The notes under the pieces are model-generated. The model worked only from the letters and a program-made list of their open reading frames with translations, had not been told where the DNA came from and ran no database searches. A DNA stretch of 64,000 nucleotides from Gottfriedia acidiceleris (GTDB lineage: Bacteria; Bacillota; Bacilli; Bacillales; Bacillaceae_G): contig NZ_CP096034.1 of assembly GCF_023115465.1 (NCBI RefSeq), forward strand, positions 3,472,001-3,536,000. Direction: 5' to 3'. The translations under genes were made by a program, and so were the position numbers. Shown here piece by piece: positions 18,741 to 30,690 of this stretch (position 1 is the first letter of the stretch; every line of letters starts with the position of its first letter).

Positions 18741-18777
18741 AGTTAATCTTTACTAGTTAATGTTGGTTAAATAAAAA

Positions 18778-18798
18778 AGGTCTGTTTTTAACAGACCT
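18778..18798. repeat. Hairpin, first copy
   Basis: AGGTCTG-TTTTTAA-CAGACCT. On the minus strand it is followed by a T-run (complement of the A-run at 18773-18778), so it could terminate minus-strand transcripts. The same 21 bases recur at 19307-19327. Confidence 0.6.
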
Positions 18799-18861
18799 CA
18801 TGCTGTTGAAAAACTACCTTGTCAATTAATTATCAAATTTTCGTGAAAGGAGTAGAGTGAT

Positions 18862-18988
18862 GTTGATTTCCATTACAGGATGCTCGCTTTCCATGGGGCG
18901 AGATTCTTTAGCCTCCTCGGCAAGCCTGTGGGGTCTCAGCCTTCCCGCTTATCCCATAGGAGTCGAACATCCCTCCATTCCAATCAAC
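18862..18988. repeat. Bacillaceae dispersed GC-rich repeat element
   Basis: About 127 bases, clearly richer in G and C than the surroundings, beginning GTTGATTTCCATT and ending CCATTCCAATCAAC, with inner blocks TGCTCGCTTTCC, GGGGCG, GCCTCCTCGG, CTGTGGGGTCTCA and AGGAGTCGA. This is the recognisable layout of a short noncoding element found in many copies in Bacillaceae genomes. The ends are partly inverted. It carries no credible gene. Confidence 0.65.
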
Positions 18989-19306
18989 TTATTCATCAAA
19001 AAATGTCTGCGATAAACCCTAATCAAATAGCCTTTCCTTAGAGTAATCTAACTTTAATCAGATTGTAGATCAATTAATATTGAACATTTATTAAACTAAA
19101 CAATCGAATTTGTTTTCTAAAAAAGGCTTATAATATTTTTAACGTCTAAAAAAAGCATTTCTATTGTTATTGAAATAATGAAATTGCTCAAACATATTAA
19201 CATTTATAACCATTAAAAGATCATTCAAAAAATGCTAATTTATAATTATGAAATGTTCACTTAAAGTCCGTTTTCCCTATTGACGATTTTATATTTCAAC
19301 ACTCTG

Positions 19307-19327
19307 AGGTCTGTTTTTAACAGACCT
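19307..19327. repeat. Hairpin, second copy
   Basis: Identical to the 21-base hairpin at 18778-18798, 529 bases away and on the other side of the dispersed repeat. It lies just beyond the stop of the minus-strand DUF202 gene and may end the alkyl-sulfate operon transcript, though no T-run follows on that strand. Confidence 0.5.
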
Positions 19328-19337
19328 ACTTTTAAAA

Positions 19338-19721
19338 CTATCCCCAAACATCTAAATAATAAGCACCAAAAATAAGAAAAATGAGAATTAAGGCAATCGA
19401 TAAATAAACAACTAAAATTCTTGAAAATCTAAATGTTTGATTATTAATATCATTTCCTTTAATAAAATAACTTATTGTTGAAATGAGTAAGGCAACTATT
19501 CCAACAATTATTGATGATAACCCTATTATCTTTGATAATGCATCTCCCATTTTTGCATTAGAAGTCATCGTTGAAAAATGAAGATTAGTGATTAAGAAGC
19601 CTACTCCCATTATCGTTATGCTTGTTCTTACCCAAGCAAGATAAGTTCTTTCATTTGCTAAATGCTGTTGTATATATTTAGAATCAATTGTTTCATACTG
19701 TTTTTCTAACGCGTTATTCAT
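19338..19721 (-). CDS. DUF202 (YidH-like) membrane protein
   Basis: A 127-residue membrane protein with three helices and the DUF202 signature LANERTYLAWVRTSITIMGVGF. The start is the second ATG at 19721, 6 bases after GAGGT. It is the last gene of the minus-strand operon that begins with the aldehyde dehydrogenase, 35 bases after the MFS transporter gene. The function is unknown; it may support the transporter. Confidence 0.85.
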   Translation of the reverse strand: MNNALEKQYETIDSKYIQQHLANERTYLAWVRTSITIMGVGFLITNLHFSTMTSNAKMGDALSKIIGLSSIIVGIVALLISTISYFIKGNDINNQTFRFSRILVVYLSIALILIFLIFGAYYLDVWG

Positions 19722-19756
19722 ATTCATACCTCTGCATCTAGTTATTTCTTAAATTA

Positions 19757-21028
19757 TTAAAGGTTTACTAGCTTATTCCCCTTTTCTATTGAATCTTGTT
19801 GCTTTCGGTTTCCGAAAAGGAATGTTAAAAATGCTGCAATTACCATCGTAATTGAGATTCCAAAAACTGCAATGCTATATCCACCTGCTGCATTTACTCC
19901 CGTATTTTGTATAAGCTTTCCAAAAATAATTGGGGTAATTATACCCGATGAAGTCATTATTCCAAAATAAGTGCCTGTCATAACTCCTCTACGGTGTGGA
20001 AGTATACTAACCACTATAGCTGGGCTAAGTGTGTTCACTGTGGCAACCATTGTATTTACTAATGAAAGTAGAATAATAATTGTAACCACCCCATTCATAA
20101 GTGGGTATAAAGAATACAACATACCTGCTATTAAAACACTAATTGTAGAAAATAAAATGCGCGATTTCCATATATTTTGTGCCTTTTTATATAAACGATC
20201 TGAGATTATTGATAGTCCAATCGCTGAAATAGCCCCAATTAATCCAGAGACAGCAATAACTAATGCAGACTGTTGTTCTGATAACCCTTTTACTTTTATT
20301 AGATACGATGGATTAAAAGTAAGCCCAAAGACAATAAACGAATAGGCTATAAATGCAATTAAAGTCGTAAATATAAATTTAGGAGATCGCAATGCCTCCC
20401 ATACTTCTTTTCTATTATTCTTTGTTTTGTTTTCAATCGTACTTACTTCGTATTGTTCAGAAATAGTTGGTTTCATTCTACCTAACCATATCCAACAAAT
20501 AAACCAGAGAAAGCTAAAAATACCAGAAATAAAAAATGCATTTCTCCAACCATAAATTGATATTAAAGAAACGATGATAGGAGCTGTTACTGCTATTCCA
20601 ACAACATTTCCAAAACTAATAATGGATATAGCGAATCCACGTGATTCTGGTTTAAACATTTTACTTATATGACTAATTGCGGTTGCCATATATGCCCCTT
20701 CACCTGCACCTAATAAAACTCTACTTAAGATTAGAACAGGTAGGCTTGATGCAAACAAAGCCATAGATTGTGCGATTGTCCATACAATGGCCATAATAGC
20801 AAGCGATTTACCAGTACCTATGCGATCTGAAAAAGAGCCACCTACTATCCCAAATATTGAAAATAACCAATAAAAACTACTTCCTAAAATACCAAACTCT
20901 GTAGAGGTTAAGTTCAAGTCTTGGGTAATATGTATACCAGCTAAACCTAAGATTGATTTGTCAGCAAAATTAATAATAGCCATTAGAAAAAGTGCAAATA
21001 AAATAATCCATTTCGCCCAACTTTTCAT
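19757..21028 (-). CDS. MFS transporter (ACS-like)
   Basis: A 423-residue major facilitator with twelve membrane segments. The conserved loop between helices 2 and 3 reads GGSFSDRIGTGK, and LSRVLLGAGEGAYM is typical of the anion:cation symporter type that imports organic acids. AGGAG precedes the ATG. Within the alkyl-sulfate operon it is the best candidate for uptake of the substrate or export of a product; direction and substrate are inferred from position only. Confidence 0.88.
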   Translation of the reverse strand: MKSWAKWIILFALFLMAIINFADKSILGLAGIHITQDLNLTSTEFGILGSSFYWLFSIFGIVGGSFSDRIGTGKSLAIMAIVWTIAQSMALFASSLPVLILSRVLLGAGEGAYMATAISHISKMFKPESRGFAISIISFGNVVGIAVTAPIIVSLISIYGWRNAFFISGIFSFLWFICWIWLGRMKPTISEQYEVSTIENKTKNNRKEVWEALRSPKFIFTTLIAFIAYSFIVFGLTFNPSYLIKVKGLSEQQSALVIAVSGLIGAISAIGLSIISDRLYKKAQNIWKSRILFSTISVLIAGMLYSLYPLMNGVVTIIILLSLVNTMVATVNTLSPAIVVSILPHRRGVMTGTYFGIMTSSGIITPIIFGKLIQNTGVNAAGGYSIAVFGISITMVIAAFLTFLFGNRKQQDSIEKGNKLVNL

Positions 21029-21101
21029 CCAAGCTCCTGCCTCTCGTAAAATTCAAAGCTTTTTTTCATTAAAAGGATTTACATTCATACTTTCTGAAAA
21101 T

Positions 21102-21147
21102 AGCACCTGCTATGTTTTTTTATGCTAAGCATATTTAAGCAGGTGCT
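21102..21147 (-). terminator. Hairpin between the alkylsulfatase-like and MFS genes
   Basis: AGCACCTGCT (21102-21111) pairs with AGCAGGTGCT (21138-21147) across a 26-base loop, followed on the minus strand by ATTTTC. It may be a partial terminator that lowers expression of the transporter genes. Confidence 0.5.
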
Positions 21148-21162
21148 TATTTTCACTATTAC

Positions 21163-23067
21163 TTAGGGAATAACGATATTTATATAACGGTCGAAATCAT
21201 CTAAAAGTGATAAAAATTCATTCAATTTCGTTTGGTTACCTGAAATGATTAAGTTACCTGCAGTTACTCCTTGTTCTGTTGAGAGTAGACCTAGAACAAT
21301 TCCGTAAAATGTCATTTGATCAATTATTAATGATACATCTGCATGATCAGCTAATTTATTTTCTTTAAAAAACAAAACAGAGTTCTCTAAATAAATCGAA
21401 TATTTTTGGTTAGTATTTGATAATGTTACATTCATTGTTATATTTTTACCTTCTGCTTTTGGACCATTTAATTTAACTGCTACTAGTTTTAAGAATTCAT
21501 TTACAGGCATATTTTTAATAACTTCAGAAACATCTAAAGGTGAATTATCTTTGTAAATTCCATTTCTAAGTTCGAATGCGCCAACAAGATAAATATTCCG
21601 CCAATTAGCTGACTCTGCTTGATATCCTAATTGTTCGAATGCATCTGCTAATAGATTTTTAGCTTCTGAATTTTCTGGGTCAGCCATTACGATATGTTTT
21701 ACCACTTGAACAACCCAGCGATATTGACCATTTTCAAAATCAACTCTAGCTTGTCTCAAAACATTTGCTGACCCACCCATATATTCTACATATTTTCGCC
21801 CCGCTTCTACTTGCGGTAATGGATCTAAATCGGAAGGATGAGCACTATAAAAGCCTAAATAATAATTGTAAACACCCTTTGAATTATGCTTCAAAGTACC
21901 ATAATATCCACGATTCCCCCAATAGGTATCTAATGCTTTTGGGAGTTTAATTGTTTCAGCTATTTCATCCATTGTATAACCGAGATTTGCTAAACGCACA
22001 GTCTGATCGTGTATATATTTATATAAATCGCGTTGAAGTTTTAAATGTTCTATTACATTATTTTTCTCCCAAACTGGCCAAGCATGAATCATAAGTAATG
22101 CATCAATATCTTCCGTTTCAAATAGATCAATCGTTTTATCTAAGGCATTTGCCCAAAGTAAAGCATCTCGGGTTTTTGCCCCCCTTACTGTATAGATTTG
22201 ATGCATTAATTTATTTGCGTTCTCTGAAACGAATAATACTTTGTAATCTTTTATATAAAAATGCATTTCAGCTGGTGCTTCTGTATTTGGCGTTAATAAA
22301 AACTTAAATGTTATACCATCGATTTCCATCAATTGGATTTCGTTTACTATTTCAACGTTTGGTTCCACAAAACTGGTCTTCCCTGCAGTCATTGTTGGTC
22401 CAATACCTACTGATACAGAGCCCTGCGTACCATCTGATAAATTTTTACCAAACTGATACTCCGCTCTACGCGTCATAATCGTACCTAAGAGTACATTTTC
22501 ACTTAACGCTTCATTTGTAAAGTATTGAGGAACTACGATTGGAATAGTTGGATTTTCAGCATATTTTAGTACTGCTTGAATTCCGCCAAAATGATCAGCA
22601 TGGCTCTGACTTATGATTACGGCTGTTACTGGCTTTTGTGGTCTATGTTTATAATACAATTCCATAGCGGCTTCAGCAGATTCATTACTTCCTAACGTAT
22701 CAACGACAATCACTCCATTTTTTCCTTCAATAAAAAAGTTAGTAACCATTGATTGTCCACGAACTTGATATACTCCTTCTACAACTTCAAACAAACCAGA
22801 TATAGCCTGTAATTGCGCGTTTCTCCATAAACTTGGATTTACAGTCTCAGGTGCAGTGACATTTAAATAGTCCAGCTGTTCTATGTCCCAAACAACTTCA
22901 CCAAAATCATTTTTAATAATCTTTGCTTCTAATGGTGCAATAAAACCTCTGTTTGCATCAATAAAGTCCTGTCGATCATCAAAATTTAAAGTATCATAGA
23001 CTGCTAAATTAGCATCTTTTGTAAAAGAAGTTGCGGGTTTTGATTGAGTTAGCACTTTATTTGTCAT
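21163..23067 (-). CDS. Alkylsulfatase-like metallo-beta-lactamase-fold hydrolase
   Basis: A 634-residue relative of SdsA1-type alkylsulfatases, which cut alkyl sulfates to alcohol plus sulfate. It has the family's three parts: MBL-fold catalytic domain (about 95-340), helical dimerisation domain (about 340-495) and SCP2-like C-terminal domain (about 505-630). The metal motif reads SQSHADHFGG: His156, Asp158 and His159 are present, but the first His of HxHxDH is Gln154. Later ligands TEAPAEM (Glu263), SENAN (Glu282) and IHAWPVW (His328) are kept. I start at the ATG at 23067 after GGAGG. The neighbours, fatty alcohol and aldehyde dehydrogenases, acyl-CoA ligase and LysR regulator, fit alkyl-sulfate breakdown. 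Confidence 0.85.
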   Translation of the reverse strand: MTNKVLTQSKPATSFTKDANLAVYDTLNFDDRQDFIDANRGFIAPLEAKIIKNDFGEVVWDIEQLDYLNVTAPETVNPSLWRNAQLQAISGLFEVVEGVYQVRGQSMVTNFFIEGKNGVIVVDTLGSNESAEAAMELYYKHRPQKPVTAVIISQSHADHFGGIQAVLKYAENPTIPIVVPQYFTNEALSENVLLGTIMTRRAEYQFGKNLSDGTQGSVSVGIGPTMTAGKTSFVEPNVEIVNEIQLMEIDGITFKFLLTPNTEAPAEMHFYIKDYKVLFVSENANKLMHQIYTVRGAKTRDALLWANALDKTIDLFETEDIDALLMIHAWPVWEKNNVIEHLKLQRDLYKYIHDQTVRLANLGYTMDEIAETIKLPKALDTYWGNRGYYGTLKHNSKGVYNYYLGFYSAHPSDLDPLPQVEAGRKYVEYMGGSANVLRQARVDFENGQYRWVVQVVKHIVMADPENSEAKNLLADAFEQLGYQAESANWRNIYLVGAFELRNGIYKDNSPLDVSEVIKNMPVNEFLKLVAVKLNGPKAEGKNITMNVTLSNTNQKYSIYLENSVLFFKENKLADHADVSLIIDQMTFYGIVLGLLSTEQGVTAGNLIISGNQTKLNEFLSLLDDFDRYINIVIP

Positions 23068-23104
23068 AAGAACCTCCAAAAATTGTTATAAAAAAATTTT
23101 TTAA

Positions 23105-24622
23105 CTAATTTACTTCCATTTTTTCTAAATTTAAATCTCTCTTTAAAATTTTTCCTGTACTATTCTTTGGTAATTCATTTTTAAATTCGATTTGTTTTGG
23201 AAGTTTGTACTTAGCAAGTTTGTCTTTGCAGAAATGCAAAATATCATCCTTCGTTATTGATTCATCATTAGACACAACGAAAGCTTTTACGATTTGTCCG
23301 TATTCCTTATCAGTAATTCCAAATACTGCTACTTCAACGATTGCTGGGTGTTGATAAATTACTTCCTCTACTTCTCTTGGATAAACATTATATCCACCAA
23401 CAATAATCATGTCTTTTATTCGATCAACAATATAGATGTAACCATCGTTATCCATCTTTGCTAAATCACCAGTGTAAAACCAACCATTTTTAATGACCTT
23501 AGCTGTTTCTTCAGCCATACCAAGATAACCAATCATTACATTGGGACCTTTTACAATTAGTTCACCTATTTCTCCTCTAGGCACTTCAAATCCATTTTTA
23601 TCAACTATCATATTTAATACGCCTGGGATATTTATTCCGACAGAACCTAATTTTCTTTCTCCTTTTAAGGGATTAAATGCTGTCACAGGAGCTGTTTCTG
23701 AAAGACCGAATCCTTCGAGAATAATAGTCTTATATTTTTCTTCAAACCTTTGAAGTAACTCAACAGGCATAGATGCTCCACCTGAACAACATGCGCGGAT
23801 GGAAGCGAAATACTCAGCTGTATATTCTTGTAGCTGTAATAAAAAGTTATACATCGTTGGAACGCCAGCAAATAATGTCACTTGCTCATTAAAGATTGTA
23901 TTGATGACCTCACTAGGACTGAATCTTGGAACAATTACTATATTTGCTCCACACATGATTGGTGCATTAATACAGATTGACAAACAGAATACATGGAACA
24001 TTGGAAGAACAGCTAAAATACGATCATTTTTGTTAAAATCGACCAATTCAACAATTGATTGAGCATTTGATACTAAATTACGATGAGACAACATAGCGCC
24101 CTTTGGTTTACCGGTTGTCCCAGACGTATATAAAATGACAGCAAGATCATCTTCTATAATTAGTGGATATTCATTGTCATTTGAATTCTTATTAAGCAAA
24201 TGCCTCCAACTAAGCTCTGCTTTCGTCGATTCCACATAGTACAGCATTTCAATCTGTTTTAACTCTACTTTAAGAGAATCAATGATTTGATGCATAGTAG
24301 AATCTGCAATAACAGCCTTTGCTTGGCTGTTCGAAAGAATAAATGATATTTCGTCTTTGGTAAAGATTGGATTTACAGGAACAACTACGCCTCCTGCACG
24401 TAGAATCCCATAATAAGCAGTGACAAAGTCTGGACAATTCCCTAATATCAAGGCTACTCTATCACCTTTTTTGATTCCCTCATGTATTAATTTCGATGCA
24501 AGGCATTCAACTTGGGAAAGTAATACACTATACGTGAAATTTATATTTTTAAATGTAATTGCATTATGATTTGGAAATTTCTCTGCACTTTTTTTTAAAC
24601 TTTCATATAAATTCAAACTCAT
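23105..24622 (-). CDS. Long-chain acyl-CoA ligase (AMP-binding)
   Basis: A 505-residue adenylate-forming enzyme that activates a fatty acid with ATP and CoA. Motifs: LYTSGTTGKPKGAMLSH (phosphate loop), GFGLSETAP, GWFYTGDLAKMDNDGYIYIVDRIKDMII (hinge) and the catalytic Lys in PKNSTGKILKRDL. The ATG at 24622 has GGAGG 7 bases upstream. In the operon it follows the two dehydrogenases and would convert their fatty acid product to acyl-CoA for beta-oxidation. Confidence 0.93.
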   Translation of the reverse strand: MSLNLYESLKKSAEKFPNHNAITFKNINFTYSVLLSQVECLASKLIHEGIKKGDRVALILGNCPDFVTAYYGILRAGGVVVPVNPIFTKDEISFILSNSQAKAVIADSTMHQIIDSLKVELKQIEMLYYVESTKAELSWRHLLNKNSNDNEYPLIIEDDLAVILYTSGTTGKPKGAMLSHRNLVSNAQSIVELVDFNKNDRILAVLPMFHVFCLSICINAPIMCGANIVIVPRFSPSEVINTIFNEQVTLFAGVPTMYNFLLQLQEYTAEYFASIRACCSGGASMPVELLQRFEEKYKTIILEGFGLSETAPVTAFNPLKGERKLGSVGINIPGVLNMIVDKNGFEVPRGEIGELIVKGPNVMIGYLGMAEETAKVIKNGWFYTGDLAKMDNDGYIYIVDRIKDMIIVGGYNVYPREVEEVIYQHPAIVEVAVFGITDKEYGQIVKAFVVSNDESITKDDILHFCKDKLAKYKLPKQIEFKNELPKNSTGKILKRDLNLEKMEVN

Positions 24623-24671
24623 TACTAAGCCTCCAAAATTCTCAAGTATTAGCATCAATATGAATAAAGCT

Positions 24672-24702
24672 GAGGCACCATCATCATTTTTGAAGGTGCC
24701 TC
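24672..24702 (-). terminator. Intercistronic hairpin before the acyl-CoA ligase gene
   Basis: GAGGCACC (24672-24679) pairs with GGTGCCTC (24695-24702). No strong T-run follows on the minus strand, so an RNA-processing or partial termination role is as likely as full termination. Confidence 0.45.
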
Positions 24703-24718
24703 TTAACTTTGATTAAAA

Positions 24719-25927
24719 TTATGAATTCACTAAGCTGGAGCCTACAACTTCATTTGAAATTTTCGCAATAACTTCAGGTGGAATTTTAAAGAAAATTCCA
24801 CACGGATCGCTATGAACTAATGCAACAATATACGCCATATTATCGACATTCACCTCAAAGTCAGCAAAGGTACTTGGCAAGCCTACTTTTTCACGGAGAT
24901 TACGTATAAATAATACAACTTCTGCTAAACATGCTTCTGGGGAATCTGGTATATTTTTTAGGCCTAGTGCTTTTGCAAAATCATTAATTCGTTTTAAATA
25001 AAATGGTGCTAGTGATTCCATTACATTTGGTAATAAAACTGCATTTGCTAGCCCATGTGGAATTCCGAATTTTGCTCCAAATACATGTGCTATATTGTGT
25101 ACTGGAATCGCATTAACTGAGAGACTGAAAGCAGAAATTGCCATTGCACTAGCCATTAACATATTAGATCGCGATGCAAGATTTTCTCCATCATGAACAG
25201 CTGTAGGCAAATTTTCTACAATCATTCGAATTGATTGTAGTGCGTATGCATCTGTCATTGGGTTCGATTGAGGAGAGAAATATGCCTCAATTGCATGAGT
25301 TAACGCATCAAATCCTGTAAATGCAGTAATTTTTGGAGGCAAACCAATTGTAAGTTCTGGATCTAAAATCGCCATATCAGGGCTTATAAATGTATTCAGG
25401 ATATTCGTTTTAATTCCAACCTTTTCATTAAATACTACAGCGATTGGTGACACTTCCGCTCCAGTACCAGCAGTTGTTGCAATTGCAACGTGTGGAATTG
25501 GAATATACTGAGCTTTTGGCCAAAATTCCATTACATTTCCTACAAGAAGTTCTTCACGAATGTCATGAACTTTATTATGTAGCATCCATTTAATTGCTTT
25601 TACTGTATCTAAAACACTTCCGCCACCAACAGCAATTAATGAATCTCCATTACATTCTTTATAGAATTTAGCTCCGCGGTTTATGATTTCACCTTTAGCA
25701 TCCTGTTCTATGTCCTCAAAAACACCTACTAGCTGTACATCGCTAGGTATTGTCTCAAATAACTCCTTAATTTGATCCGTAATTCCTGCTTGTGTTATTC
25801 CTTTATCAACATAAAGAACGGCTCTTTTACCACCAAGTCCTTTAATCATTTCAGGTAACAAAGAGCGAGCTCCAGCTCCACTGTTTACAACTGTTCGAAC
25901 CGAAAACTGGAAAAATGACGTTATCAT
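24719..25927 (-). CDS. Iron-containing alcohol dehydrogenase
   Basis: A 402-residue group III alcohol dehydrogenase. Nucleotide-binding GGGSVLDTVKAI, TTAGTGAEVSP, GFDALTHAIEAY and the metal-site histidines in PVHNIAHVFGAKFGIPHGLANAVLLP are all present. I start at the ATG at 25927 (MITSFFQFSVRT), preceded by GAAGGTG; the frame to 26011 would overlap the aldehyde dehydrogenase gene. In this operon it would oxidise the fatty alcohol freed by the sulfatase-like enzyme. Confidence 0.92.
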   Translation of the reverse strand: MITSFFQFSVRTVVNSGAGARSLLPEMIKGLGGKRAVLYVDKGITQAGITDQIKELFETIPSDVQLVGVFEDIEQDAKGEIINRGAKFYKECNGDSLIAVGGGSVLDTVKAIKWMLHNKVHDIREELLVGNVMEFWPKAQYIPIPHVAIATTAGTGAEVSPIAVVFNEKVGIKTNILNTFISPDMAILDPELTIGLPPKITAFTGFDALTHAIEAYFSPQSNPMTDAYALQSIRMIVENLPTAVHDGENLASRSNMLMASAMAISAFSLSVNAIPVHNIAHVFGAKFGIPHGLANAVLLPNVMESLAPFYLKRINDFAKALGLKNIPDSPEACLAEVVLFIRNLREKVGLPSTFADFEVNVDNMAYIVALVHSDPCGIFFKIPPEVIAKISNEVVGSSLVNS

Positions 25928-25994
25928 GAAATCACCTTCTCTTTTCTGTTTAAGTTTTTTTAATAGATCTATATTCAATTGTTTTTTGTAATTT

Positions 25995-27512
25995 TTATAA
26001 TAAGATGCCATACCAAGGTTTTTGACTTAGTTCAGGGGTAAGTGAGCAATGAACATGCTTTACTTGCGTGTACTCGTCTAAAGCATATCGACCAAGCTCA
26101 CGACCAAATCCACTTTGTTTATATCCTCCAAATGGTGCATCGCTTCTTAACATATGCCAGTCATTGATCCAGACTGTTCCCGCCTTTAATTCTTTTGATA
26201 TTTGAAGTGCTTTATTTACGTCTTTAGACCAAATACCAGCTGCTAACCCATAAATCGTATCATTCGCAATTTCAATTGCTTCCTCAATCGTCGAATATCG
26301 AATGACACAAAGAACAGGACCGAAAATCTCTTCTTGAGCGATTTTCATTTTATTATTAACATCCGCGAAAATCGTTGGTTCAACAAAATATCCATTATCA
26401 TATCCCTTACCTGTTAAACGTTTACCACCACAAACTAAACGAGCTCCTTCCTGGATTCCAGCATCAATATAAGATAAAACAGTTTCTAGTTGTTGTTCTG
26501 AAGCCATTGGCCCCATTCCAGTCGTCATATCAAGCTGGTTTCCAATCGTAATTGAAGAGGCTAAACTCGCTAATCGCTCAACTACTTCCTCATAGATTGA
26601 ATCATGTACTAAAAGGCGTGTTCCTGATTCACATAGTTGTCCAGAGTGAAGACAGAAACCGAATAAACTACCTGGAATAGTAATATCTAAATCAGCATCA
26701 GGTAATACGATCGATGGTGATTTTCCTCCTAATTCTAGAGTGACTCTTTTAACTGTTCCAGATGCTAACTCCATAATCCGTCTTCCTACTTCAGTAGATC
26801 CCGTAAATGCTACCTTATCTACATGTGGATGAGTTGCTAGCACTTCACCAACAGTAGCTCCTGGTCCTGAAACAACATTGAAAACTCCTGCCGGGATTCC
26901 AGCTTCAGTAGCTAATTCTGCTAGTTTCAAAGCAGAAAGTGGTGTATTTGAGGCAGGTTTAACAACAATTGAGTTCCCCATTGCAAGCGCAGGTGCAATT
27001 TTCCACATTGCTAAAAGCATTGGTAGATTCCAAGGTGTAATCGCAGCTACGACACCAATGCCTTCTCGCCATACTTGATTGTTGCTAGGTCCTGGAAAAG
27101 GTAGTATTGGCAAAGACTCAACAAATGGATACTCAACAGTAAATTTCGCTGTTTGCTGAAGTAAATCTACTAAATATAAAATATCCAAATTGGAAATTCT
27201 TCTTACAGTAGCTCCAGAACTAACAGATTCCAAGAATGCAAGTTCCTCCGAATGTTCGACAATCTTATTCCCGAAATTAATTAAGATTTGAGCTCTTTCT
27301 TTTGGTGATTTTTTTGACCAAACTCCCGAATCAAAAGCATTACGAGCAGAAGTAATAGCTGTTTCCGTATCTTCTCTCCCAGCTTTAGCTACCAGAGCGA
27401 TCACTTCTCCAGTTGCTGGATTTTTCACACTAAACGTTTCACCACTTTTTGCAGGTGTCCATCTACCATCAATATAAAGCGGAAATTCTAATAATTTTTG
27501 AGTTGTTTGCAT
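25995..27512 (-). CDS. NAD-dependent aldehyde dehydrogenase
   Basis: A 505-residue aldehyde dehydrogenase. Landmarks: ITPWNLPMLLAMWKIAPALAMGNS, FTGSTEVGRRI, VTLELGGKSPSIV (general-base Glu), FGFCLHSGQLCESGTRLL (catalytic Cys), EEIFGPVLCV and the C-terminal WINDWHMLRSDAPFGGYKQSGFGRELG. AGGAGG precedes the ATG. First gene of the operon; it would turn the fatty aldehyde into the acid. Confidence 0.94.
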   Translation of the reverse strand: MQTTQKLLEFPLYIDGRWTPAKSGETFSVKNPATGEVIALVAKAGREDTETAITSARNAFDSGVWSKKSPKERAQILINFGNKIVEHSEELAFLESVSSGATVRRISNLDILYLVDLLQQTAKFTVEYPFVESLPILPFPGPSNNQVWREGIGVVAAITPWNLPMLLAMWKIAPALAMGNSIVVKPASNTPLSALKLAELATEAGIPAGVFNVVSGPGATVGEVLATHPHVDKVAFTGSTEVGRRIMELASGTVKRVTLELGGKSPSIVLPDADLDITIPGSLFGFCLHSGQLCESGTRLLVHDSIYEEVVERLASLASSITIGNQLDMTTGMGPMASEQQLETVLSYIDAGIQEGARLVCGGKRLTGKGYDNGYFVEPTIFADVNNKMKIAQEEIFGPVLCVIRYSTIEEAIEIANDTIYGLAAGIWSKDVNKALQISKELKAGTVWINDWHMLRSDAPFGGYKQSGFGRELGRYALDEYTQVKHVHCSLTPELSQKPWYGILL

Positions 27513-27580
27513 TTAAAAACCTCCTAAAATAGTTATCAAATTAGTTAAGTAGGAAATACAGTAACACCTGAACTCCTTTT

Positions 27581-27595
27581 GAGAAAACGCTTGCA
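27581..27595 (+). promoter_or_regulatory. Weak cre-like site upstream of the aldehyde dehydrogenase operon
   Basis: GAGAAAACGCTTGCA matches the CcpA cre consensus except at the first two positions. It lies about 70 bases before the first gene of the operon, in the divergent region shared with the LysR gene, where carbon catabolite control of a degradative operon would be expected. Confidence 0.35.
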
Positions 27596-27804
27596 AATCT
27601 AAAGGAATTTTTAGAAAATAATCTTAAGGACTTGTCTTAGTTTAAAAATTGAGAATTATCTGAATTAATTGTATAACTTCACATTTACTAAGTAAAATTA
27701 GGATTTGTAATACCTTGTTAGCATTTTTTAATATCTAAAAATAGAGGTTATTTATTATCCAAACGTATTTCTAATATAGTAATCTTTAAAGAGGTGGTCA
27801 CCAT

Positions 27805-28713
27805 ATGCACATTCAAAAACTTAAGATACTTTCTGAGGTCGCTAAAACTGGATCTTTTTCTATTGCAGGTCAAAATCTTCATATAACCCAATCTGGTATT
27901 AGTCAGGATATTAAAAAAATAGAAGATGAATTAGGAATAAAAATTTTCGATCGCTCTCGATATGGGGTTGTTTTATCACATGAAGGGGCAAAAATTGTAA
28001 ATAAAGCAAATGAGGTATTGTTAAAATATGAAGAAATGATTGAAGAGGCAAGAATAATTCTAGAAATACATTCTGGAAATCTAAGAGTTTCTACTATACC
28101 TGCTTTCTTTACTTATTTATTAAAACCATTAATAGAATTTAAGAATTTATATTCAAATTTAAACATAGAAATTTTAGAAAATATAACTGAGTATACAGTT
28201 GAAGCGGTTCAACAAAATAAAGCAGAGATTGGACTTATATGTATATATGAAAATATTTTGAAAAATATTGAGCTTTTAAATTTTGAAAGGATTCTTGAGG
28301 GGACACTAAAGGTTTATGTAAGTAGCGATTCTCCTTTTGCTAAAAAGAAAAAAATTACACCAGAAGAAGTCCTTCAGCAGGCAGTAGTATTATACAATGG
28401 TGATTATATCAATTGGTTTGTTCATAATTTTCAACTTAAATTTGGAAAAATGAATATTCTTATATCATCAAATCAAACGGAAGAATTATCACGATTAATC
28501 TCCGAAGGATTTGCAATTGGTTTTGCTCCAGATTTTGCTACTAAAAGTAATCCTTATGTTATTGAAAATAAAATTGTTGAAATTGATCTTATAAACTATG
28601 AACCTGTTAATGTTGCACTTGGCATTATTCATGGAAAGAATCGAACTCCTTCAAAAATAGAGAAACACTTAATAAATTTTATTAAATCCGAATTAGAATA
28701 CTATTTAAATTAG
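27805..28713 (+). CDS. LysR-family regulator divergent from the alkyl-sulfate operon
   Basis: A 302-residue LysR protein with an N-terminal winged helix-turn-helix (FSIAGQNLHITQSGISQDIKKIEDELGIKIFDR) and an effector domain (about 90-295). AGAGGTGG precedes the ATG. It is transcribed away from the aldehyde dehydrogenase operon across a 292-base gap, the classic place for a LysR activator of that operon. SdsB of Pseudomonas, the activator of the alkylsulfatase gene sdsA, is also LysR-type, so the layout matches by analogy. Confidence 0.9.
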   Translation: MHIQKLKILSEVAKTGSFSIAGQNLHITQSGISQDIKKIEDELGIKIFDRSRYGVVLSHEGAKIVNKANEVLLKYEEMIEEARIILEIHSGNLRVSTIPAFFTYLLKPLIEFKNLYSNLNIEILENITEYTVEAVQQNKAEIGLICIYENILKNIELLNFERILEGTLKVYVSSDSPFAKKKKITPEEVLQQAVVLYNGDYINWFVHNFQLKFGKMNILISSNQTEELSRLISEGFAIGFAPDFATKSNPYVIENKIVEIDLINYEPVNVALGIIHGKNRTPSKIEKHLINFIKSELEYYLN

Positions 28714-28821: not shown

Positions 28822-28849
28822 AATCTTTAAATTCTTAGGACATAAAATC

Positions 28850-28892
28850 ACCCGAATACTAGACACTTATTTTAAGTGTCTAGTATTCGGGT
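28850..28892. repeat. Perfect 20-bp inverted repeat with 3-base loop
   Basis: ACCCGAATACTAGACACTTA (28850-28869), loop TTT, then its exact reverse complement (28873-28892). No T-run follows directly on either strand. It separates the LysR terminator from the decayed hydrolase and may be a bidirectional transcription barrier or the relic of a mobile element. Confidence 0.6.
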
Positions 28893-28970
28893 AACATTTC
28901 AATTTTGACAGTCCTTTATTATTGAACTAAGCATAAGTCAAGGTAATAAGGAATTTCTTATTCATTTTAA

Positions 28971-29160: not shown

Positions 29161-29349
29161 AAAATATTTTAGTATGTTTAAGTTTATTCTATTCGCAACT
29201 ATTAATATTATAAAATTATTCCAAAAACATTAAATCAATTAATATAATAAACTACAGTTTAAATAGTCTGAATATTAGGTATAAAGCCACTTTTTTTACT
29301 TTGGAATATTATGGTAAAATTAGGATGATTTTAACAAGGGAGGGTGCAT

Positions 29350-29907
29350 ATGACTAAGACAATAGGTCTTATTTGTGGTAGTTTACGTAAAAACTCTTAT
29401 AATCGAATCATTGCTCAATCATTAACAGAGATGGCTGATTCCCATCAATTTCGTTGGATCGAGATTAATGATCTACCTTTATTCAATGAAGACTTAGAAA
29501 CAAGTGTTCCGGAAGCAGTGACATCATTTAAATCTGCTATCCAGGGCGTTGACGGTATCATTATTGTAAGTCCAGAGTACAATTCTGGAATTCCAGGCGT
29601 ATTAAAGAATGCATTGGACTGGGCATCAAGACCTCGGGAATCAGCTGTTCTTAGTAGAAAACCGGTTGGTTTAATTGGTGCAACTCCTGGTGGATTAGGT
29701 ACTGTTTATGCTCAAATACAAACCAGAGAAATACTAGAAGCTATGCAAGCTCATGTACTTCCATTTCAAAAAATGCTGATATCCCAAGTACATGAAAAGA
29801 TTGATTCCGATCATAAAGTACTTACTGACGAACATACAAAACGATATCTTCATCGTTATTTACAACAATTTATCAATTGGATAGATAAAGCTTCTTTATT
29901 AGATTAA
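29350..29907 (+). CDS. NADPH-dependent FMN reductase family protein
   Basis: A 185-residue flavodoxin-like oxidoreductase. Landmarks: GLICGSLRKNSYNR (phosphate-binding loop for FMN), INDLPLFNEDLE, VSPEYNSGIPGVLKNALDWASR and GATPGGLGTVYAQIQTREIL. The ATG at 29350 follows GGAGG at the right spacing. Proteins of this type reduce FMN, quinones or azo compounds. It could supply reduced flavin to the monooxygenase at 7 kb, but they are unlinked. Confidence 0.9.
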   Translation: MTKTIGLICGSLRKNSYNRIIAQSLTEMADSHQFRWIEINDLPLFNEDLETSVPEAVTSFKSAIQGVDGIIIVSPEYNSGIPGVLKNALDWASRPRESAVLSRKPVGLIGATPGGLGTVYAQIQTREILEAMQAHVLPFQKMLISQVHEKIDSDHKVLTDEHTKRYLHRYLQQFINWIDKASLLD

Positions 29908-30045
29908 TAGAAGAACCAAGTATTTTTAAAAATCAGTCTAACTTTTTTCCGATTTAGAAAAACTGATTGTAACAAACGAAGAAAATTTGATAATATTCCA
30001 GTTTTAAACTTTCATCGATTACTTAATTTTTAGGAGGAATACATA

Positions 30046-30690
30046 ATGTCTGATCTCTATTCTCGTATTAATAAAGATGATGCTGTCGTTCTTTTAGTTG
30101 ATCATCAAACTGGTCTCATGGCTGGACTAGTGCGTGACTATGGTGTTGATGAATTCAAGAACAATGTTTTGGCTCTTGCTCACACTGCTAAGTTTTTTGA
30201 TTTACCTGTTATTTTAACAACAAGCTTTGAAAACGGGCCTAATGGACCACTAATGCAAGAATTAGTTGAGCTTTTTCCTAACGCCCCAAAAATAGCTCGC
30301 CCTGGACAAATTAATGCATGGGATAATGATGATTTTGTAAAAGCAATCGAAGAAACTGGAAAAAAACAACTTATTATCGCTGGCGTAGTTACGGATGTTT
30401 GCGTTGCTTTCCCAGCTCTTTCTGCTATAAAAGCTGGTTATGAAGTATTTGCTGTTACTGATGCTTCAGGAACTTTCAGCAAACAAGTTGCAGATGCCGC
30501 CAATACGCGTATGGCACATAGTGGTGTGCAACTTTTGAACTGGTTTAGCGTAGCGTGCGAATTACAACGCGATTGGCGCAACGATGTTGAAGGTTTTGGT
30601 ACTTTACTTGCTAGTAATCTTCCAGGTTATCAAAATATAATTGGAAGCTATATGGCAACTCAGCGAAATCTGAGTAAACAAAATGTCTGA
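30046..30690 (+). CDS. Isochorismatase-family cysteine hydrolase (YcaC-like)
   Basis: A 214-residue cysteine hydrolase. The catalytic triad is visible as Asp in VVLLVDHQTGLM, a lysine/arginine near KIARPGQINAWDN, and Cys in IIAGVVTDVCVAFPALSA. The overall length and the C-terminal SVACELQRDWRNDVEGF match YcaC-type members, whose natural substrate is unclear. AGGAGG precedes the ATG. It lies 138 bases after the FMN reductase gene on the same strand and may share its transcript. Confidence 0.9.
   Translation: MSDLYSRINKDDAVVLLVDHQTGLMAGLVRDYGVDEFKNNVLALAHTAKFFDLPVILTTSFENGPNGPLMQELVELFPNAPKIARPGQINAWDNDDFVKAIEETGKKQLIIAGVVTDVCVAFPALSAIKAGYEVFAVTDASGTFSKQVADAANTRMAHSGVQLLNWFSVACELQRDWRNDVEGFGTLLASNLPGYQNIIGSYMATQRNLSKQNV

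Follow-up and report, generated by a model that had tools for sequence, protein, structure and literature searches.

What would a run of genes for cleaving an alkyl sulfate and oxidising the released alcohol do in a Bacillaceae genome, when its sulfatase lacks the first histidine of the family's metal motif? The run lies in Gottfriedia acidiceleris (Bacillaceae), on contig NZ_CP096034.1, within positions 3,472,001 to 3,536,000 (the window: the whole 64,000-nucleotide stretch analysed, part of a 4.69-Mb single-contig genome). Six minus-strand genes stand opposite a gene for a LysR-type regulator. We consider it probable that they form an inducible, catabolite-controlled operon that would use an organic sulfate ester as a carbon source, by way of an importer-fed cytosolic alkylsulfatase with Gln at the first position of its metal motif (Gln type). 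The seven genes, in window coordinates, are:

27805..28713, plus strand: LysR-type regulator, divergent (Pfam HTH_1 and LysR_substrate)
25995..27512, minus strand: aldehyde dehydrogenase (ALDH; PF00171, 584.8 bits)
24719..25927, minus strand: iron-containing alcohol dehydrogenase (Fe-ADH; PF00465/PF25137; the open reading frame extends back to 26011)
23105..24622, minus strand: acyl-CoA ligase (PF00501/PF13193; the open reading frame extends back to a TTG at 24658)
21163..23067, minus strand: type III alkylsulfatase relative with SQSHADH replacing HxHxDH (Ser106, Gln154, Gln290)
19757..21028, minus strand: major facilitator superfamily (MFS) transporter, organic-anion symporter type (MFS_1; TIGR00893, 165.2 bits)
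19338..19727, minus strand: DUF202 membrane protein (PF02656)

The initial annotation had placed a six-gene run and an opposing LysR gene here, and all seven open reading frames (ORFs) are indeed open and intact at those places. Its gene identities agree with the Pfam assignments (PF00171, PF00465, PF00501/PF13193, a metallo-beta-lactamase (MBL) domain with Alkyl_sulf_dimr and Alkyl_sulf_C, MFS_1, DUF202 and LysR). Its divergent regulator and path to acyl-CoA are likewise consistent with the domains and with a ligase that exceeds the curated cut-off of the long-chain-fatty-acid–CoA ligase model (NF004837, 542 bits against 476). Three starts are better moved, to 25927 for Fe-ADH (402 aa), 24622 for the ligase and 23067 for the sulfatase (634 aa), because these ATGs have a ribosome-binding site upstream or match an ortholog start, as for the Fe-ADH, whose orthologs are also 402 aa long. 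In a terminator scan of the window, none of the gaps separating the six genes contains a terminator-like site.

The sulfatase carries its MBL, Alkyl_sulf_dimr and Alkyl_sulf_C domains in a single chain, all over the Pfam cut-offs, and can be aligned over nearly its full length with the solved YjcS, SdsAP, SdsA1 and Pisa1. Type III sulfatases are described, in the available parts of the sources, as binuclear zinc enzymes (PMC3920027, PMC5426288); in SdsAP, one zinc is bound by His192, His194, Glu303 and Glu322, and the other by Asp196, His197, His367 and Glu322 (PMC5426288). SdsAP His192 corresponds to Gln154 in the window protein, which retains the other metal ligands (H156, D158, H159, E267, E282 and H328) and the family-conserved H289 and R295. 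Of the zinc ligands expected of a type III alkylsulfatase (HxHxDH, two Glu and a later His), the first His is the only one missing. A 10-row alignment gave a poor AlphaFold model (pLDDT 60, pTM 0.46), which was not used; the structural mapping rests on sequence homology to the solved YjcS and SdsAP.

How deep is this change? We compared 56 sulfatase rows, 13 of the Gln type and 43 others, in a tree and an invariance count (L numbers denote loci and G numbers genomes of the comparison set, G000 being the window's own genome). Left out were the fragments L028 and L029 (a split paralog in G003), L003 and L059 (the same genes as those of the window and L074) and six short forms of ~430 aa (L085–L088, L091 and L099). 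The 43 non-Gln rows, each of more than 550 aa, share 45 columns with an invariance of at least 98%. All 13 Gln rows keep 38 of these, four vary in some Gln rows, and three are altered in 13/13 and intact in 43/43 others: Asp106 to Ser, His154 to Gln and Asn290 to Gln. Together, the three substitutions may amount to one rebuilt site. In the short forms, two of the three sites are occupied by His and Asn, and the two Glu ligands are replaced by Gln and Asp. The 13 Gln sequences form one clade (100/100), sister to 11 sequences with His in the motif (H-type) from Gottfriedia and genus g69. The SdsA1-like label of the initial annotation thus stands for the three-domain family and its solved relatives and fails at the first metal His and the two further invariant residues; as judged from the tree, the protein belongs by descent to a divergent clade and is not an SdsA1 equivalent. 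With a dN/dS of 0.11–0.14 against orthologs in 6/6 pairs, the gene is maintained by purifying selection.

Relatives of the sulfatase are present in 19/119 near genomes and 35/397 of the order; the family hidden Markov model finds it in 16/398 phylum genomes, 14 of them over the cut-off. Our reading took in the order's 41 sulfatase places apart from those of G168, G357 and G293, and the phylum-search loci apart from L089, L090, L092–L098 and L100. The 10 named sulfatase matches listed belong to Gottfriedia luciferensis (92%), G. acidiceleris, Bacillus sp. strains and Peribacillus alkalitolerans. The Gln type occurs in 10 of the 13 genus genomes compared and in G245, G345 and G025 outside it, which gives 13 loci. 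A strict DNA pattern for the Gln motif matches 1/398 phylum genomes, namely the window's own; it requires GG after the motif and misses the G245 and G345 forms (DHFSG, DHFAG). A plasmid survey covered 16 of the 158 plasmid records with a sulfatase relative, and a scan of viral contigs found no relative.

The nine other Gottfriedia Gln-type loci encode proteins 77–98% identical to those of the window in unchanged order, so the arrangement is no product of chance. Does the gene set hold as a whole? All seven genes occur together in 8/13 Gln-type loci (the window, L030, L031, L032, L034, L035, L036 and L038), and the LysR gene lies opposite the operon in 11 of the 12 loci where this can be judged. 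L033 has six genes on a contig that stops before LysR, L037 is without DUF202, and L039 retains only ALDH (47%) and the sulfatase. In G245 and G345 (L074 and L075, genomes of the same taxonomic order) there is no ligase and DUF202 is partial or absent. The six-gene order, which the initial annotation proposed to seek in relatives, is therefore found in part of them, the ligase and DUF202 (G245, G345, L037) being its inconstant members.

The window's genome encodes a second alkylsulfatase, of the H-type and with a signal-like N-terminus, ~55 kb before the window (G000:C1:3415582-3417495, L042). Its neighbours, judged by eye, are an amino-acid-permease-like gene and molybdenum-hydroxylase-like genes.

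Where would the Gln-type enzyme act? Judged by eye, a signal-like N-terminus is found in 0/13 Gln-type sulfatases and a hydrophobic, signal-like start in all 11 H-type sisters, which look exported. The adjoining MFS protein scores below the TIGR00893 cut-off (165.2 bits against 395), and the solved chains closest to it are the organic-anion carriers DgoT, VGLUT2 and sialin. Because the sulfatase has no signal-like N-terminus and a transporter adjoins it, an imported substrate fits better than extracellular sodium dodecyl sulfate (SDS), and the intact ester may well be taken up through the MFS protein. The earlier assignment to alkyl sulfate breakdown thus agrees with the enzyme set and requires revision as to the substrate and its location. 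A conjugative plasmid of Rhodococcus sp. AH-ZY2 (L103) carries genes for a sulfatase with His in the metal motif, an MFS protein, a protein resembling the formylglycine-generating enzyme, two DUF202 proteins and an AMP-binding protein, while the opposite strand carries genes for an ADH and an ALDH. This recurrence of DUF202 beside an alkylsulfatase–MFS–ligase set in another phylum suggests that DUF202 has a role in the pathway.

The oxidation enzymes recur around different sulfatases. In G001, a LysR gene (73%) stands opposite sulfatase, ALDH (90%), Fe-ADH (79%) and ligase (71%) genes, and the sulfatase is of the H-type (57%) with a signal-like N-terminus. Since this H-type sulfatase occupies the same unit, the enzymes follow sulfatase function, not one gene. 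Downstream in G009, past a GerA-like gene, there is a second pair of LysR and H-type sulfatase genes. In G025, outside the family, tripartite ATP-independent periplasmic (TRAP) transporter genes are followed by those for an ADP-forming acyl-CoA synthetase, a zinc ADH and an ALDH and then by the Gln-type sulfatase gene; this locus is predicted to encode the same steps by mostly other enzyme families. Different sulfatases are repeatedly accompanied by an ADH, an ALDH and a CoA-forming enzyme, which supports the chemistry assigned here.

The solved chains closest to the ALDH and Fe-ADH are the ALDH and ADH halves of BdhE (9ldl), in which the two are fused in one chain; here they are separate ORFs in the same order. 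We considered a BdhE-like channelling complex and do not claim one, given that, in the part of the source available, neighbouring unfused pairs are not predicted to interact (PMC12454647). Two further Fe-ADH matches in the window's genome lie within 879- and 876-codon open frames that may be ALDH–ADH fusions (G000:C1:2974632-2975858 and 3331079-3332230).

In Pseudomonas aeruginosa, SdsA1 is accompanied by SdsB, a LysR-type activator of sdsA. The window LysR has CidR as its best NCBIfam model (124.8 bits, cut-off 415) and is 22% identical over 148 aa to the LysR beside an sdsA-like gene of Vibrio pelagius. Upstream of the operon, an alignment of 10 LysR/ALDH intergenic regions contains three conserved elements:

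27697..27716, minus strand: candidate LysR site, a conserved block immediately preceding the promoter-like site
27668..27696, minus strand: promoter-like site TTTACT-17-TACAAT, both boxes in conserved columns of the alignment
27582..27596, minus strand: catabolite-responsive element (cre)-like site TTGCAAGCGTTTTCT, candidate CcpA site by consensus match and conservation

A block similar to the candidate LysR site precedes the H-type sulfatase operon of L040. The window as a whole has 49 promoter-like sites, no excess over shuffles, which average 57.6. At the cre-like site, TTTGCAAGCGTTTT is invariant in 10/10 regions, and WTGNAANCGNWNNCW, which we take to be the cre consensus, fits 9/10, the exception being L035. 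The conserved 17-mer of this site also occurs upstream of H-type sulfatase genes in L040 and L037. Its position downstream of the promoter suits repression by CcpA, and such control points to a role in carbon rather than sulfur acquisition.

How might the parts work together? The MFS protein would bring in the intact sulfate ester, which need not be SDS, and the cytosolic Gln-type enzyme would hydrolyse it, releasing sulfate together with a primary alcohol. The alcohol would be oxidised to the acid by Fe-ADH and ALDH, and the ligase would form the acyl-CoA for beta-oxidation. LysR, possibly responding to the ester or alcohol, would activate transcription from the site just upstream of the promoter, and CcpA, acting through the cre-like site, would repress it as long as more favourable sugars are available.

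The initial annotation considered a whole-route operon unusual in a spore-forming Bacillaceae and knew of no described example; this claim does not stand, as the Psychrobacter slfR/slfCHSL genes have been described and tested as a complete operon (PMC10779009). This SLF module of plasmid pP62BP1, as far as the available part of the paper describes it, allows SDS to be decomposed by its host and by E. coli carrying it, and is induced by lauryl aldehyde; alkyl sulfates as the only source of carbon do not, however, support growth of the host (PMC10779009). As in SLF, where genes for an aldehyde oxidoreductase, an alcohol dehydrogenase, an alkyl sulfatase and a fatty-acid–CoA synthetase form one operon with an adjoining regulator, the window has ALDH, ADH, alkylsulfatase and CoA ligase genes in one run beside a regulator. 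The SLF regulator is an AraC/XylS repressor, whereas that of the window is a LysR protein; in the same text SLF hydrolysis is called extracellular, its five genes include neither MFS nor DUF202, and its sulfatase gene precedes the ligase gene (PMC10779009). Pseudomonas alkylsulfatase genes, by the same account, tend to be dispersed over the genome (PMC10779009). P. aeruginosa SdsA1 and LaoABC(R) likewise combine an alkylsulfatase with subsequent alcohol and aldehyde oxidation (PMC6107682, PMC10779009), but the His motif is retained in SdsA1, whose site has been compared with that of SdsAP (PMC5426288). SdsAP, Pisa1 and YjcS share the three-domain build and the other metal ligands with the window sulfatase; they differ from it at His192 to Gln and Asn330 to Gln (SdsAP numbering, counted from His192) and in that the window protein has no signal-like N-terminus. 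A review cites a Bacillus cereus that breaks down SDS (PMC3920027), and the sole match in a literature search for alkylsulfatase with Bacillus, operon and LysR concerned a Pseudomonas genome. The idea of the operon is thus known, and LysR control, the importer, DUF202 and the Gln-type sulfatase make the window a variant of it.

Several observations weigh against an importer-fed, carbon-directed operon with an active sulfatase. An enzyme that has lost a zinc ligand may be inactive or altered in its activity. SdsAP Tyr246 and Gly263 correspond to Phe206 and Gly223; Tyr/Gly marks primary (SdsA1-like) and Ser/Phe secondary (Pisa1-like) enzymes, the Phe/Gly pair matches neither in full and appears closer to the primary pattern than to that of Pisa1. 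However, Tyr246Ala and Tyr246Ser abolish SDS hydrolysis in SdsAP, according to the part of the paper available (PMC5426288), and Phe stands at this position in the Gln clade and likewise in its H-type sister. The ligase is missing from 2/13 Gln-type loci. Signal-like N-terminus and MFS neighbour are not exclusive, as the H-type loci L076–L078 have both, and the absence of a match in the 17-kb G001 stretch applies to the window MFS alone. Finally, the window holds three matches to the cre consensus against 1.24 expected, and 15/100 shuffles have at least three; since these matches alone are not significant, conservation carries the cre case.

Could this instead be a plain operon for SDS or long-chain alkyl sulfates, with a neutral His-to-Gln change? 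The ligase score, the SDS-degrading SLF operon with the same enzyme roles (known to us from part of its source) and the match of Gly223 with an aromatic at 206 to the primary type all favour this, yet we hold it to be unlikely, as the sulfatase looks cytosolic, the transporter is of an organic-anion type, three family-invariant residues have changed jointly and become fixed, and the TRAP transporter genes of G025 suggest a small soluble anion. That the Gln-type protein no longer hydrolyses alkyl sulfates, acting on another ester or as a binding protein in an operon that degrades some other alcohol precursor, would account for the replacement of the first metal His and two otherwise invariant residues throughout the clade. 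It sits poorly with the 38/45 invariant columns retained in all 13 rows, with the H-type gene in the same operon of G001, and with the B3-Q metallo-beta-lactamases such as GOB-18, which have Gln at the first motif His and are still active in the portion of the source consulted (PMC10318434); we regard this loss of function as improbable.

A choline-O-sulfate to glycine betaine route for osmoprotection, with the sulfatase, a GbsB-like ADH and an ALDH resembling betaine-aldehyde dehydrogenase (BADH), draws on BADH being the best NCBIfam model for the ALDH, on the match of Fe-ADH to GbsB, on the two loci without a ligase and on there being no GbsB above the cut-off in the genome. Both models fall short of their curated cut-offs here (561.8 against 668.6 for BADH, 223.3 against 550 bits for GbsB), a fatty-acyl-CoA ligase is encoded in 10/13 loci and an acyl-CoA synthetase in an eleventh, and a choline sulfatase in the literature is, in the part of the paper seen, a class I sulfatase (PMC5870055), all of which makes this route very improbable.

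Returning to the importer-fed organosulfate operon, is its sulfatase a new kind of enzyme? We advance only tentatively, as a possibility with somewhat less than even chances, a new cytosolic subclass of type III alkylsulfatases with a rebuilt second zinc site (Asp–Ser, His–Gln, Asn–Gln), which would work with a single metal or a different one on imported small sulfate esters and be paired with a dedicated importer and a CcpA- and LysR-controlled oxidation line in Bacillaceae. The second zinc may be kept or be replaced by the Gln. The GOB-18 likeness, Gln at the first motif His, comes from another family with another substrate and serves as precedent only (PMC10318434, seen in part). Literature searches, which covered most papers (among them the sulfatase and MBL surveys PMC5066984 and PMC7785958) at listing level and left out most subscription papers, returned no description of a Gln-site alkylsulfatase. 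If correct, type III sulfatases would have a natural Gln-site form comparable to that of the GOB beta-lactamases, and the closely related His-site sister clade from the same genus would allow the two forms to be compared directly. Bacillaceae would moreover gain a compact importer-fed organosulfate pathway, with the LysR protein as a candidate sensor of sulfate esters or their alcohols.

Beside the operon, a 510-bp non-coding repeat separates it from a DUF421 gene:

18799..19306, plus strand: dispersed repeat (510-bp element), flanked by a 21-bp hairpin duplication at 18778-18798 and 19307-19327
18777..18799, minus strand: terminator-like hairpin and T-run (terminator scan), possible end of the operon transcript

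The repeat has at least 45 matches in its own genome and at least 15–50, many partial, per genome in 13/13 genus genomes; 40 candidates were scored per genome, hence these are lower bounds. We compared 19 copies, namely the window copy and 18 picked from the better matches (L132–L149). A direct repeat of 15–37 bp flanks 18/19, and 16/18 of these flanks self-pair at two-thirds or more of positions, against 0/342 in a cross-copy flank control. The element inserts at hairpins, duplicating them. It has no match in Rfam, and no transposase for it was found. The hairpin duplicated in the window is terminator-like. Its copy beside DUF202, at 19307-19327, has no minus-strand T-run, so that transcription of the operon may continue across the repeat as far as the distant hairpin.

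Four copies of the repeat contain a 1.68-kb DUF772-transposase element, at one internal site, with a 12-bp duplication and in both orientations:

L162, L163, L164 and L165: copies of the DUF772 element in the repeat, at G000:C1 ~179.7, 1742.6, 4086.2 and 1957.2 kb

The orientations follow from ORF strands and swapped ends; ungapped identity is uninformative because the ends are offset. The comparison of insertion sites covered these four copies; L156 and L159 are two further ones. The transposon seems to home to the repeat. Its insertion into the repeat, always at the one site and either way round, led us to drop it as a possible parent of the 510-bp repeat.

On the other side of the operon, a strong minus-strand hairpin and T-run lies at 28848-28894, past the LysR gene. 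Adjoining that gene, at window positions 29344-30690, are an FMN-reductase-like gene and then a YcaC-family hydrolase gene (365.6 bits, cut-off 310).

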